Below are positions 49,001 through 55,000 of a stretch of DNA of 64,000 nucleotides, piece after piece. The stretch is from Salvelinus alpinus (lineage: Eukaryota; Chordata; Actinopteri; Salmoniformes; Salmonidae), in the NCBI RefSeq assembly GCF_045679555.1, contig NC_092094.1:10782319-10846318 (forward strand), given 5' to 3'. The notes under the pieces were generated by a model that worked only from the letters and a program-made list of their open reading frames with translations, made no database searches and was not told where the DNA came from. Numbering within the stretch: position 1 is the stretch's first letter; each line of letters opens with the position of its first letter. A program made the translations under genes and the position numbers.

Positions 49001-52000
49001 ATCTGAAAATTGTTGTGGGACTAGGGTGTCTGGTAAGGTGGAGGCGATATGGTCATTAACTAGCCTCTCAAAGCACTTCATGATGACAGAAGTGAGTGCT
49101 ACGGGGCGATAGTCATTTAGTTCAGTTACATTCGCTTTCTTGGGTACAGGAACAATGGTGGACATCTTGAAGCAAGTGGGGACAACAGACCGGGATAGGG
49201 AGAGATTGAATATGTCCGTAAACACTTAAGAGGACACGACTTGGGATGCCGTCTGGGCCTGCAGCCTCGTGTGGGTTAACATGCTTAGTCCAGGGACTGA
49301 ACGTTGGCAAGTAATATACTGGGAAGCAGTGGATGGTATGCACACCGCCTGAGTCTGACTAGGGCACAACTCCTATCTCTTCTCCCACGTGGGCGGTTTG
49401 GTGCAGCTCCTGGGATGATCAGAACTGCCTAGGGCACAACTCCTATCTCTTCTCCAACGTGGGCGGTTCGGTGCAGCTCCTGGGATGATCAGAACTGCCT
49501 CGGGAAGGTCAAAACAAAGGATCCAGGTCAGGGAAGTCCAATTTCTGGTAAGTGACCGCCGATCTAATATCCAAAAGTTATTTCCGGCTGTACATAATAA
49601 TACAACAAACATTCTGAGTAAATAATGTAAGAAATAACACTGAAAAAAAACGAAATACTGCAAAGTTGGCTAGGAGCAAGGCGACCGTGTCTGTCGGCCA
49701 CCATCTTTTTAAAATGTATTTATTTATTTTACCTTTATTTAACCAGGCAAGTCAGTTAAGAACAAATTCTTATTTTCAATGATGGCCTAGGAACAGTGGG
49801 TTAAACTGCCTTGTTCAGGGGCAGAACGACAGATTTTTACCTTGTCAGCTCGGGGATTCAATCTTGCAACCTTTGGGATACTGGTCCAACGCTCTAACCA
49901 CTAGGTTACCTGCCGCCCCACAAATGTACTGCCAAAACAGAGTGTGTGTGTGTGTGTGTGTGTGTCCCTCTACCTGTGTGCTGTAGTTGCTGTGTGTGTG
50001 TGTGTCCCTCTACCTGTGTGCTGTAGTTGCTGTGTGTGTGTGTGTCCCTCTACCTGTGTGCTGTAGTTGCTGTGTGTGTGTGTGTCCCTCTACCTGTGTG
50101 CTGTAGTTGCTGTGTGTGTGTGTGTCCCTCTACCTGTGTGCTGTAGTTGCTGTGTGTGTGTGTGTCCCTCTACCTGTGTGCTGTAGTTGCTGTGTGTGTG
50201 TGTGTCCCTCTACCTGTGTGCTGTAGTTGCTGTGTGTGTGTGTGTGTCCCTCTACCTGTGTGCTGTAGTTGCTGTGTGTGTGTGTGTCCCTCTACCTGTG
50301 TGCTGTAGTTGCTGTGTGTGTGTGTGTCCCTCTACCTGTGTGCTGTAGTTGCTGTGTGTGTGTGTGTGTCCCTCTACCTGTGTGCTGTAGTTGCTGTGTG
50401 TGTGTGTGTGTGTCCCTCTACCTGTGTGCTGTAGTTGCTGTGTGTGTGTGTGTGTGTGTGTCCCTCTACCTGTGTGCTGTAGTTGCTGTGTGTGTGTGTG
50501 TGTGTGTGTGTCCCTCTACCTGTGTGCTGTAGTTGCTGTGTGTGTGTGTGTGTGTCCCTCTACCTGTGTGCTGTAGTTGCTGTGTGTGTGTGTGTGTGTC
50601 CCTCTACCTGTGTGCTGTAGTTGCTGTGTGTGTGTGTGTGTCCCTCTACCTGTGTGCTGTAGTTGCTGTGTGTGTGTGTGTGTGTGTCCCTCTACCTGTG
50701 TGCTGTAGTTGCTGTGTGTGTGTGTGTGTGTGTGTCCCTCTACCTGTGTGCTGTAGTTGCTGTGTGTGTGTGTGTGTGTGTGTGTCCCTCTACCTGTGTG
50801 CTGTAGTTGCTGTGTGTGTGTGTGTGTGTGTGTGTCCCTCTACCTGTGTGCTGTAGTTGCTGTGTGTGTGTGTGTGTGTGTGTCCCTCTACCTGTGTGCT
50901 GTAGTTGCTGTGTGTGTGTGTGTGTGTGTGTGTCCCTCTACCTGTGTGCTGTAGTTGCTGTGTGTGTGTGTGTGTGTGTCCCTCTACCTGTGTGCTGTAG
51001 TTGCTGTGTGTGTGTGTGTGTGTGTGTCCCTCTACCTGTGTGCTGTAGTTGCTGTGTGTGTGTGTGTGTGTGTGTGTCCCTCTACCTGTGTGCTGTAGTT
51101 GCTGTGTGTGTGTGTGTGTGTGTGTCCCTCTACCTGTGTGCTGTAGTTGCTGTGTGTGTGTGTGTGTGTGTCCCTCTACCTGTGTGCTGTAGTTGCTGTG
51201 TGTGTGTGTGTGTGTCCCTCTACCTGTGTGCTGTAGTTGCTGTGTGTGTGTGTGTGTCCCTCTACCTGTGTGCTGTAGTTGCTGTGTGTGTGTGTGTGTG
51301 TGTCCCTCTACCTGTGTGCTGTAGTTGCTGTGTGTGTGTGTGTGTGTCCCTCTACCTGTGTGCTGTAGTTGCTGTGTGTGTGTGTGTGTGTCCCTCTACC
51401 TGTGTGCTGTAGTTGCTGTGTGTGTGTCCCTCTACCTGTGTGCTGTAGTTGCTGTGTGTGTGTGTGTCCCTCTACCTGTGTGCTGTAGTTGCTGTGTGTG
51501 TGTGTGTCCCTCTACCTGTGTGCTGTAGTTGCTGTGTGTGTGTGTCCCTCTACCTGTGTGCTGTAGTTGCTGTGTGTGTGTGTCCCTCTACCTGTGTGCT
51601 GTAGTTGCTGTGTGTGTGTGTCCCTCTACCTGTGTGCTGTAGTTGCTGTGTGTGTGTGTCCCTCTACCTGTGTGCTGTAGTTGCTGTGTGTGCGTGTCTA
51701 GTCTACCTGTGTGCTGTAGTTGCTGTGTGTGCGTGTCTAGTCTACCTGTGTGCTGTAGTTGCTGTGTGTGTGTCTAGTCTACCTGTGTGCTGTAGTTGCT
51801 GTGTGTGTGTGTCTAGTCTACCTGTGTGCTGTAGTTGCTGTGTGTGTGTGTCCCTCTACCTGTGTGCTGTAGTTGCTGTGTGTGCGTGTCTAGTCTACCT
51901 GTGTGCTGTAGTTGCTGTGTGTGCGTGTCTAGTCTACCTGTGTGCTGTAGTTGCTGTGTGTGCGTGTCTAGTCTACCTGTGTGCTGTAGTTGCTGTGTGT

Positions 52001-55000
52001 GTGTGCGTGTCCCTCTACCTGTGTGCTGTAGTTGCTGTGTGTGTGTGTCCCTCTACCTGTGTGCTGTAGTTGCTGTGTGTGTGTGTCTAGTCTACCTGTG
52101 TGCTGTAGTTGCTGTGTGTGTGTGTGTGTCTAGTCTACCTGTGTGCTGTAGTTGCTGTGTGTGTGTGTCCCTCTACCTGTGTGCTGTAGTTGGAGCAGTG
52201 CTGGATGATTCTCTGCATCTCCTCGTGGACCAGCTCCACACAGCGCAGGCTGGGCTCCTCCAGTCTCTTCACCTGTCTCTTCACCAGCAGCTCAAACGAC
52301 ACCTCAGGCACAAACAGGGCTGGCCGCGGGCCCTACAGAGAGAGAGAGAGAGATACTACATTACCCAGCAGTCTCTGGCTAACACACAACTCACAGTTTA
52401 GAAGAACACTTTATTGTTCATTTTCTTGAGAGAAGGTAAATGTGTCTTTTTCTGCTTTGAACTCAAGCTAAACAAACAAGCTTACCCCTTAAACAGATGT
52501 GTCAAACTGATCGTCAAAACTGAACATTGTACTTGAAATGAACATGGATCCCAACAAATGTGAGGCTGTACATAAACAGTAGCATCAACTCACTGTAGCA
52601 TTCCTAATAGCTGTTAGGACGTCTATGGTGGTCAGACCTCCCAGTGGGTCGACGGACTCCAGCGTCCGACCAAACGTCTCATGGAAAATATAACAGATTC
52701 GTGCTCCACCACACCTGGAAGAGAACAACAATGTCATTTCGAGAGCTTGGGATTAGTAGGTTCTATAGGCATTTGTCAAAATTGAGTTGACAGCCTTGTT
52801 CTACTATATAGTACTCTAAATGCCCCAATTGTTATGTAAAATATACACACATACATTTGCTGACACCATTCAAACCAATGAGGTTTCGGAACTTTAAAGC
52901 CAATTATCTCAGAATCCTCTTTTAGTAGATAGAACGTTGAAGTCCCAAGCTCTCGCTTTGTAACTGAAAGATCAAAGTAGTAGGCTGGCTAATCTACCTC
53001 CTACACAGGTGTATGGGCTCCCGAGTGGCGCAGCGGTCTGAGGCACTGCCTCTCAGTGCAAGAGGCGTCACTACAGTCCCTGGTTCGAATCCAGCCTGTA
53101 TCACATCTGGCAGTGATTGGGAGTCCCATAGGGCGGCGCACAATTGGCAAAGGTTTGGCCGGGGTAGGACGTCATTAAAAAAAATATTTGTTCTTAATTA
53201 ACTGACATGCCTAGTTAAATAAAGGTTAAATTAAAATTGAACTGCAAAAGCTTCCAATTGTTTGACTTGTGACGCTCAATTTGTACTGGTGCCACCTTCT
53301 GGCAATTAGTAGAGGTGCTCGGATGTCTGAAAGAGGTTATTTCCATCCTTCCTATTTTCCTCTTCAAATAAATGAACAAAATACTAAAGAGTAGGAATTC
53401 ACACCTTTTTGGGGGAGGGGGGGGGGGGGGGAGTATAAGTTGCTCACAGTTCTGTTGTCTCTATGTACTTAGCGGTGCCCTCGATAGTGTGGCAGTACTC
53501 TGCAGCGAACTTGGTGATGAGCTGCAGTAGAGTAGAGCTCTGGTCCTCTACAGGTTCACCGTAGCTACTCAGCAGGGACTGGTACTGGGCCGCCAGCACA
53601 TTGATACGAGTCTTCAGCTCCGGGAGACAGTCTCTAATGTGATGCATCAACAACCTGGCAACGAGGAGGAGAAGAATGTGAAGTTAGAAGTGAGAACAGG
53701 GCAACAGACAGCATGATAGTCGTCCACAACGAAAGTGACTTGCTAGTTGCTTAGAGTGACATTACACTTCAAAATCAAAAGTTGTCTTCTGTTGAAGACT
53801 TGTTTGCTGAATAGATTTCTATTTTCATACCTGTTCAGCGTTCTGGCTAAGTATTTGGTTCCATTTCTGCTGGCGAGGGAGGGGTACTTCTTCTGTAGGA
53901 AGGCATATTCATCACGGATGGCGTCGGCCACTGACTTCTTATTGTTGATGTCGAGCTGACTCCTTGGAAAAGGAATGTAGGTGGTACTGTGTGAGGTTTT
54001 TTAATGACATTGTTGTGTTAAAGAACATTGTAAACAAAACGTCAAAAGGAATGCTGTCCCTTTCTCCATTTTGATCTTGAGGGACTGTTGGCTTCTTGAA
54101 CCCTTTGATGCACAAGGAGAGGCAATCCTCTCCCTTTAAAATATATACAGGGTTTTCAAGAAGGCTGAAGTCTTGCTCTATTCAACATGTTAGAGACTGA
54201 AGTGTATTGTGTAAAGGTGCAGACCTGTTGACCACTCCTATGAGGCCCAGTTTGACAGGGATGACCCGACCCATCAGTACGTCCATAGCATCTGTCCCAG
54301 CATCCATTAGGTCCAGTTTGGTCACTACAGCCAACGTCCTCCTGCCTACACACAGCGACAGAAACAGCAGAACCCATATTCATAAAATAATCAAGAGTAG
54401 GAGTGCTGATCTAGGATCAGGTCCTCCCTGTCTGGAGAAACTACAGGTAAAAAACAGGTAACCAAGGGGTTTACACCCAGGTAACCAAGGGGTTTATAGT
54501 AGGCGGTGTATCCTACACCCAGGTAACCAAGGGGTTTATAGTAGGCGGTGTATCCTACACCCAGGTAACCAAGGGGTTTTCAGTAGGCGGTGTATCCTAC
54601 ACCCAGGTAACCAAGGGGTTTTCAGTAGGCGGTGTATCCTACACCCAGGTAACCAAGGGGTTTATAGTAGAGGGTGTATCCTAAACCCAGGTAACCAAGG
54701 GGTTTATAGTAGGCGGTGTATCCTACACCCAGGTAACCAAGGGGTTTTCAGTAGGCGGTGTATCCTACACCCAGGTAACCAAGGGGTTTATAGTAGGCGG
54801 TGTATCCTACACCCAGGTAACCAAGGGGTTTTCAGTAGGCGGTGTATCCTACACCCAGGTAACCAAGGGGTTTATAGTAGAGGGTGTATCCTACACCCAG
54901 GTAACCAAGGGGTTTATAGTAGAGGGTGTATCCTACACCCAGGTAACCAAGGGGTTTTCAGTAGGCGGTGTATCCTACACCCAGGTAACCAAGGGGTTTA

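Follow-up and report, generated by a model that had tools for sequence, protein, structure and literature searches.

How can a gene stay intact when one of its exons is followed by dozens of further copies of that exon's own splice donor? The question arises in a 64,000-nt stretch of the Salvelinus alpinus genome (contig NC_092094.1, positions 10,782,319 to 10,846,318; hereafter the window, to which all coordinates refer), where dnm1l lies on the minus strand. The 18 constitutive exons of this gene were found with a human DNM1L query, and their splice sites were then refined; they run from 62648 to 37060 (37060..62648, minus strand) and, after joining, hold an open frame of 692 codons. A comparison of the product with the PDB gives 27 matches, the top 8 being Dynamin-1-like protein. 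The gene that carries the arrays described here is intact.

Three donor-border arrays in dnm1l

Exon 11 (52177..52332, minus strand; 156 nt, encoding GPRPALF...HCSNYSTQ) terminates in CAACTACAGCACACAG|GTAGAG. The 21-mer CAACTACAGCACACAG|GTAGA occurs on the minus strand in 53 exact copies from 52192 to 49969, that of exon 11 itself included and the other 52 being extra, and is absent from 100 dinucleotide shuffles. Each copy forms a core made of the last 16 exon nucleotides and the donor, and successive cores are separated by (AC)n runs of variable length, giving units of 36-50 nt and an array of approximately 2.25 kb in total. In addition to the exact-match count, Tandem Repeats Finder places this minisatellite at 49947-52192 on the same strand with 53.0 copies, the last 16 nt of exon 11 being its first unit.

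These findings bear out the central claim of a first-pass annotation made from the letters of the window, namely that an array seeded by an exon-intron junction presents dozens of donors behind exon 11. Absence of the exon-derived 16 nt from the units would have overturned that claim, and these nucleotides are present in 53/53 copies; the CA runs are found on the sense strand, as had been noted, and CAG-GTAGA is kept throughout (53/53). Other details need correction. The longer donor GTAGAG, assigned to every unit, is found in 44/53 copies, the remaining 9 reading GTAGAC; the array does not begin exactly at the exon border, its actual start lying 16 nt inside exon 11; and the interval given for it, 49940..52332, does cover the array but also takes in the whole of exon 11 (52332-52177).

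Between successive cores, 43 of the 52 units carry GTAGAGGGAC and 9 carry GTAGACTAGAC, which amounts to a GGG/CTAG difference, and a G interrupts the CA run in 6/52. Variation is limited to these two features and to the length of the CA run, and it is not randomly arranged. Unit lengths show a lag-1 autocorrelation of 0.79, a value reached in 0/5000 permutations, and unit types one of 0.59 (permutation P 0.0002), with clustering near the exon (units 2, 3, 6, 7, 8 and 10-13). The exon-side half contains 11 distinct units among 26, and the intron-side half 6 among 26. Local duplication of neighbouring units leaves such a pattern, and the graded change of unit length along the array fits a stepwise biological expansion. 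The expansion was probably recent, and its latest growth may have taken place on the intron side. Selection on the cores, rather than recent expansion, is conceivable but not needed as an account of their 53/53 identity. A scan of viral contigs for the exon-11 unit gave no match.

Two further donor arrays, the borders of which were likewise located by Tandem Repeats Finder, are found in the same gene; the first-pass annotation was silent on both. Exon 4 (56847..56918, minus strand, 72 nt) terminates in GGCAATAACAAG|GTAGGG and is followed by 13 more AAG|GTA donors at 16-nt spacing, so that the array (56636..56852, minus strand, 16-bp unit) contains 14 such donors with the exon's own. The unit consists of 12 nt resembling the end of exon 4, GGCAATRACAAG drifting to GGCGAGAACAAG and relatives, plus GTAG; the exon-adjacent unit is the most exon-like (GGCAATGACAAG), and the drift toward GGCGAGAACAAG and its relatives appears in later units. 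Exon 17 (37567..37726, minus strand, 160 nt) ends in GACATGCTCAAG and is followed by 3 more AAG|GTACAG donors, the array holding 4 with that of the exon, 61-81 nt apart (37354..37583, minus strand; Tandem Repeats Finder gives 37411-37583, and the low end was extended manually). Here the units combine a shortened copy of the exon end with a GT run, the copy lacking, as judged by eye, the 30 nt between two AGACATG repeats. At exons 11, 4 and 17 alike, then, an array sits at the exon-intron border and each unit carries the exon's donor, as in a donor-border variable number of tandem repeats (VNTR).

The three arrays differ in their CA content. The exon-11 array counts 365 overlapping CACACA on the sense strand, and a CA run on the RNA strand near the splice site, as in CA-repeat elements bound by hnRNP L, is present at this exon. 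Behind the donors of exons 4 and 17, a stretch of 215 nt contains 0 CACACA; neither a CA nor a GT run is present in the exon-4 array, and the run in the exon-17 array is GT rather than CA. It had been suggested that hnRNP L silences the decoys. As only the exon-11 array has CA runs, we reject such silencing as a common cause of tolerance.

Known repeats at exon-intron borders

The kind of array found here, which the first-pass annotation took to be undescribed, has human precedents. Intron 18 of human ABCA7 contains a VNTR whose 25-bp unit lies directly at exon 18, its first bases being the donor GT, in approximately 12-427 units (PMC5954066). Two frameshifting isoforms, one from an exon-18 cryptic acceptor (14%) and one from retention of a single unit (2%), are both independent of array size, and skipping of exon 19 rises with array size (PMC5954066). 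ABCA7 and dnm1l are alike in that tandem units stand at the exon border, the unit carries a donor and retention of a unit leads, in dnm1l by prediction, to a frameshift and a premature stop. They differ in that the ABCA7 unit has 25 bp and is presented, in the accessible part of the report, with no mention of exon-derived sequence (PMC5954066), whereas the dnm1l units of 36-50, 16 and 61-81 nt contain 16, 12 and approximately 30 exon-derived nt, respectively, and stand in three arrays within one gene.

A second precedent is the 31-bp VNTR of human CBS, c.1444_1467+7, with 24 exon and 7 intron bases in 16-21 copies (PMC2630376). By its name, the CBS unit comprises an exon end plus a donor, as in dnm1l; its length, however, is a constant 31 bp, its copies are fewer and its polymorphism has been shown in people, whereas the exon-11 array has 53 copies with a variable CA run in one assembly. 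The original CBS report is said to discuss alternative donors. The 844ins68 allele of CBS resembles dnm1l in its duplicated exon-intron junction, and its outcome is silent, as the splicing machinery strongly favours one site (PMC2630376). Internal tandem repeats have also been described at exon-intron boundaries of human paralogs, where they alter splicing (PMC2812944). They share with the dnm1l arrays their location at exon-intron borders but can form novel introns, none of which is seen in the dnm1l protein models considered below. In intron gain by tandem genomic duplication (PMC4974935) the duplicated segment contains AG|GT, as it does here; in dnm1l, by contrast, the repeats lie within an existing intron and no new one appears to result.

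The titles and abstracts found name no such array in a fish, although an earlier fish case is possible. The word splice does not occur in the accessible text of a paper on tandem repeats in cod (PMC5241972), and the growth-hormone gene of sea bream has polymorphic minisatellites in introns 1 and 3 whose contact with a donor is not stated in the part available (PMC3045353). The dnm1l arrays are thus a striking example of a kind already described in humans, and what is new is that a single fish gene has three of them. They extend the ABCA7/CBS type of VNTR, one member of which is linked to disease risk, from humans to a fish, and dnm1l, with 4, 14 and 53 near-equal donors at three of its exons, offers a natural series for tests of donor choice and copy number without engineering.

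Donor choice and competing explanations

We regard it as likely that the arrays are donor-seeded minisatellites, formed by unit expansion at exons 11, 4 and 17 and tolerated through exon definition. A unit spanning the exon-11 donor would have been duplicated, and slippage or unequal exchange would then have generated the 53-copy minisatellite of intron 11, with independent repeats of such an expansion at exons 4 and 17. Under exon definition, the acceptor would be paired across the exon with whichever donor lies nearest; the exon-proximal donor would be used and the decoys would remain intronic, which would be why the arrays persist. Occasional use of a decoy would lead to a premature stop and mostly to mRNA decay, and a length-dependent side effect is possible, such as skipping of the next exon by analogy with human ABCA7.

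In this regard, exon definition has been reported to favour the exon-proximal member of a set of near-equal or identical donors, and intron definition the intron-proximal member, the switch occurring at flanking introns of approximately 200-250 nt (PMC9225289). Both flanking introns exceed 250 nt at all three array exons: 261 and 9686 nt at exon 11, whose partner across the longer intron is the acceptor of exon 12 (42401..42490, minus strand), 2327 and 759 nt at exon 4, and 658 and 453 nt at exon 17. On balance, flanking introns above the switch speak for tolerated arrays and for use of the exon-proximal donor.

The predicted consequences of decoy use are uniform. There are 68 decoy donors in total (13 at exon 4, 52 at exon 11 and 3 at exon 17), and a premature stop results in 68/68 cases when they are joined one by one to the exon that follows. 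Of these stops, 67 fall within the array-derived extension; for the second donor of exon 11 the stop lies in a downstream exon. Use of the first exon-11 decoy (first base of its GT at 52139, minus strand) would lengthen the exon by 38 nt, with a frameshift. With the second donor of exon 17 the stop comes 22 nt before the last junction, and the resulting mRNA may escape decay by the usual rule. As all 68 decoys run into stops, useful extended exon-11 proteins are unlikely. We do not read these stops as a sign of design, given that they are expected in such repeats.

The joins predicted in relatives point in the same direction. We aligned 27 salmonid and pike protein models, taken from 120 listed homologues, with the protein of the window. 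Exon 11 ends with STQ, that is, at the exon-proximal donor, in 27/27, and in 26 of these STQ is followed directly by ELL. The exception, Oncorhynchus gorbuscha P0012, has a 20-aa insert between exons 11 and 12, which we rejected as decoy use: it starts after STQ and matches 49189-49130 at 17/20 residues, beyond the array. Judging from these models, with 26/27 joining STQ to ELL and the P0012 insert lying off the array, no new intron appears to have arisen between duplicated AG|GT sites. At exon 4, NNK is joined to GITDE in 27/27 models; at exon 17, DMLKAL is continued in 26/27, the Salmo trutta model P0024 reading on beyond the donor through GT-rich sequence to an unrelated tail. The motif GGFQGDQD is common to the window and, among the 27 models, only to Salvelinus P0015, which makes a char the probable source. 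A search with the array-derived exon-11 extension listed 120 of 2930 matches, and the extension is absent from the 12 models opened; the best match, P0121, was discarded, as it scores highly only because the gene model repeats the exon-11 region. Of the two outcomes that the first-pass annotation had offered, preference for the exon-proximal donor is therefore the one favoured, and a range of extended exon-11 forms appears improbable as a protein outcome, with stops behind 52/52 exon-11 decoys and STQ closing the exon in 27/27 models.

Two observations belong to these models in their own right. The stretch at 49189-49130 (minus strand, intron 11) is part of a sequence resembling a long interspersed nuclear element (LINE), a label given by eye, and its 17/20 match to the P0012 insert makes it a candidate exonised transposon. 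In another animal, P0147 reads STQVKHTHTH after exon 11, as though a CA run followed the same donor there.

Several points weigh against tolerance through exon definition. Intron 10 has only 261 nt, close to the switch point, and intron 17, at 453 nt, would shrink to approximately 246 nt if the 207 nt of its array were removed. Where donor strength is not matched, approximately 60% of human events prefer the downstream donor (PMC9225289), and how the intron-proximal of two comparable donors is favoured is described as not known (PMC6002489), a statement by which an intron-proximal outcome is not absurd. By a simple donor-strength matrix, exons 11 and 17 have donors that rank low among the 17 of the gene (12th, score 1.39, and 15th, score 0.68), although they are 6th and 9th by U1 pairing; for the donor of exon 4, the matrix and U1 pairing agree on 4th place. 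In ABCA7, the canonical transcript is outnumbered by the alternative ones taken together in 90% of the samples from one brain region, and the stop-bearing forms rose when decay was blocked (PMC5954066), which argues that donor arrays need not be harmless. Moreover, 9 of the 12 opened models, other vertebrates included, show non-array residues after STQ (P0122, P0123, P0124, P0126, P0127, P0128, P0129, P0130 and P0147), so that exon-11 extensions or read-through do occur elsewhere at the level of predicted models, and the Oncorhynchus kisutch model P0138, itself a divergent relative, connects exon 11 directly with exon 13. Protein models conceal degraded transcripts, and the genomes behind them may lack the arrays. 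Finally, the copy number of the exon-11 array may contain an assembly error.

The same observations can be read in other ways. Decoy donors, or skipping of exon 12, could be used at an appreciable, length-dependent rate, making array length a regulatory rheostat of DNM1L output. That every decoy leads to a stop would suit such a device, as would the U1 pairing of both unit types, which equals that of the true exon-11 donor at -8.0 kcal/mol; exon 12 is 90 nt long and in frame, the P0138 model omits it, and longer ABCA7 arrays bring more skipping of the downstream exon (PMC5954066). Stops, however, are expected by chance in these repeats, and the unit-retaining ABCA7 isoform is independent of array length (PMC5954066); we consider a rheostat unlikely. 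The preserved U1 pairing and the low matrix scores of the exon-11 and exon-17 donors could also point toward a platform for the U1 small nuclear ribonucleoprotein, the many sites raising local U1 and aiding the exon-11 donor, or shielding the 9.7-kb intron from early polyadenylation. One report cites work in which competing donors enhance a donor (PMC6002489), but those extra donors lie upstream, not downstream; the U1-pairing rank of the exon-11 donor and the two ranks of the exon-4 donor indicate no clear need of help, and exact repetition is accounted for by expansion alone, which makes a platform very unlikely. As for the assembly, long near-identical arrays are difficult to assemble, and the copy number or even the whole exon-11 array could be an artefact; yet the window has no N, the unit types, CA lengths and G variants are graded and non-random, and two shorter arrays stand in the same gene, so that we hold this reading to be highly improbable.

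A further alternative, namely that repeat-rich introns overlap three donors by chance and that donors are in no way special, deserves more credence, even if we lean against it. The arrays themselves exceed chance; what is in question is their placement. Scanning the borders with 16 nt and at most 2 mismatches, copies in the adjacent intron were found at 3/17 donors (11, 52 and 3 copies) and at 0/17 acceptors, two of the latter (exons 7 and 16) being misplaced in that scan. In a 20-nt scan within 250 nt, using corrected acceptors, best matches of 18, 20 and 19 of 20 belonged to the donors of exons 4, 11 and 17, none of the other 14 exceeding 13; the best nearby copy among the 17 acceptors matched 13/20, with no acceptor array, and neither alternative exons A and B nor the LINE-like stretch had a copy near their borders. 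Nevertheless, tandem arrays make up approximately 18% of the window, among 400 random positions in the gene 28% have a copy of at least 17/20 within 250 nt, compared with 18% of the donors (3/17), and the difference between donors and acceptors is not significant (one-sided exact P 0.11). Against chance stands the random placement of the 11 dnm1l arrays, these being the Tandem Repeats Finder rows within the gene after overlaps had been merged, nested rows and runs of pure dinucleotides removed, and the end of the exon-17 array set at 37354. When arrays were kept from reaching far into exons (5-20 exon bases overlapped), 0.10 donor overlaps were expected, and at least 3 occurred with P 0.0002 and 0.0001 in two runs; looser overlap rules gave 0.00065 and 0.0037, and a joint count over both kinds of splice site gave 0.0008 to 0.024, all of these tests being post hoc. 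Given the random-position control, the exact test and the post hoc nature of the placement tests, a donor excess is not established, and our claim is kept to three donor arrays in one gene, without proven donor excess.

The dnm1l series suggests a simple genome-wide test of donor/acceptor asymmetry. Of closely spaced AGs, the upstream acceptor is almost exclusively picked (PMC9225289), and arrays at acceptors are for this reason expected to be harmful. It is conceivable, if doubtful, that donor borders, unlike acceptor borders, are tolerated minisatellite nurseries in repeat-rich fish genomes: with exon definition selecting the nearest donor, donor-seeded arrays would be near-neutral and could grow to dozens of units, while acceptor arrays would be purged through use of the first AG. 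Salmonid genes would then hold many multi-donor experiments, and array length would tune how the following exon is spliced, as in ABCA7.

Further features of the gene and the window

Alternative dnm1l exons are encoded in introns 2 (60306-60271) and 14 (39778-39707), both on the minus strand. The gene also contains four more large intronic minisatellites, at 39882-41942 (49-bp unit), 54472-55393 (42-bp), 57267-58929 (24-bp) and 39309-39567 (27-bp), none of which contacts a constitutive exon border.

Outside dnm1l, the region 3700-16300 holds numerous unrelated reading frames on both strands, and a PYRIN domain is found at 13145-13663 (plus strand). The open reading frame at 8390-9151 (minus strand) has one relative, protein P0240 (12 contigs), with 84% identity across 43% of the query length. 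A RING-finger-like frame at 1081-1473 (minus strand) scores under the Pfam cut-off with each of the 7 listed RING models. At 25739-26092 (plus strand), a helix-turn-helix frame resembles a Tc1-type transposase.

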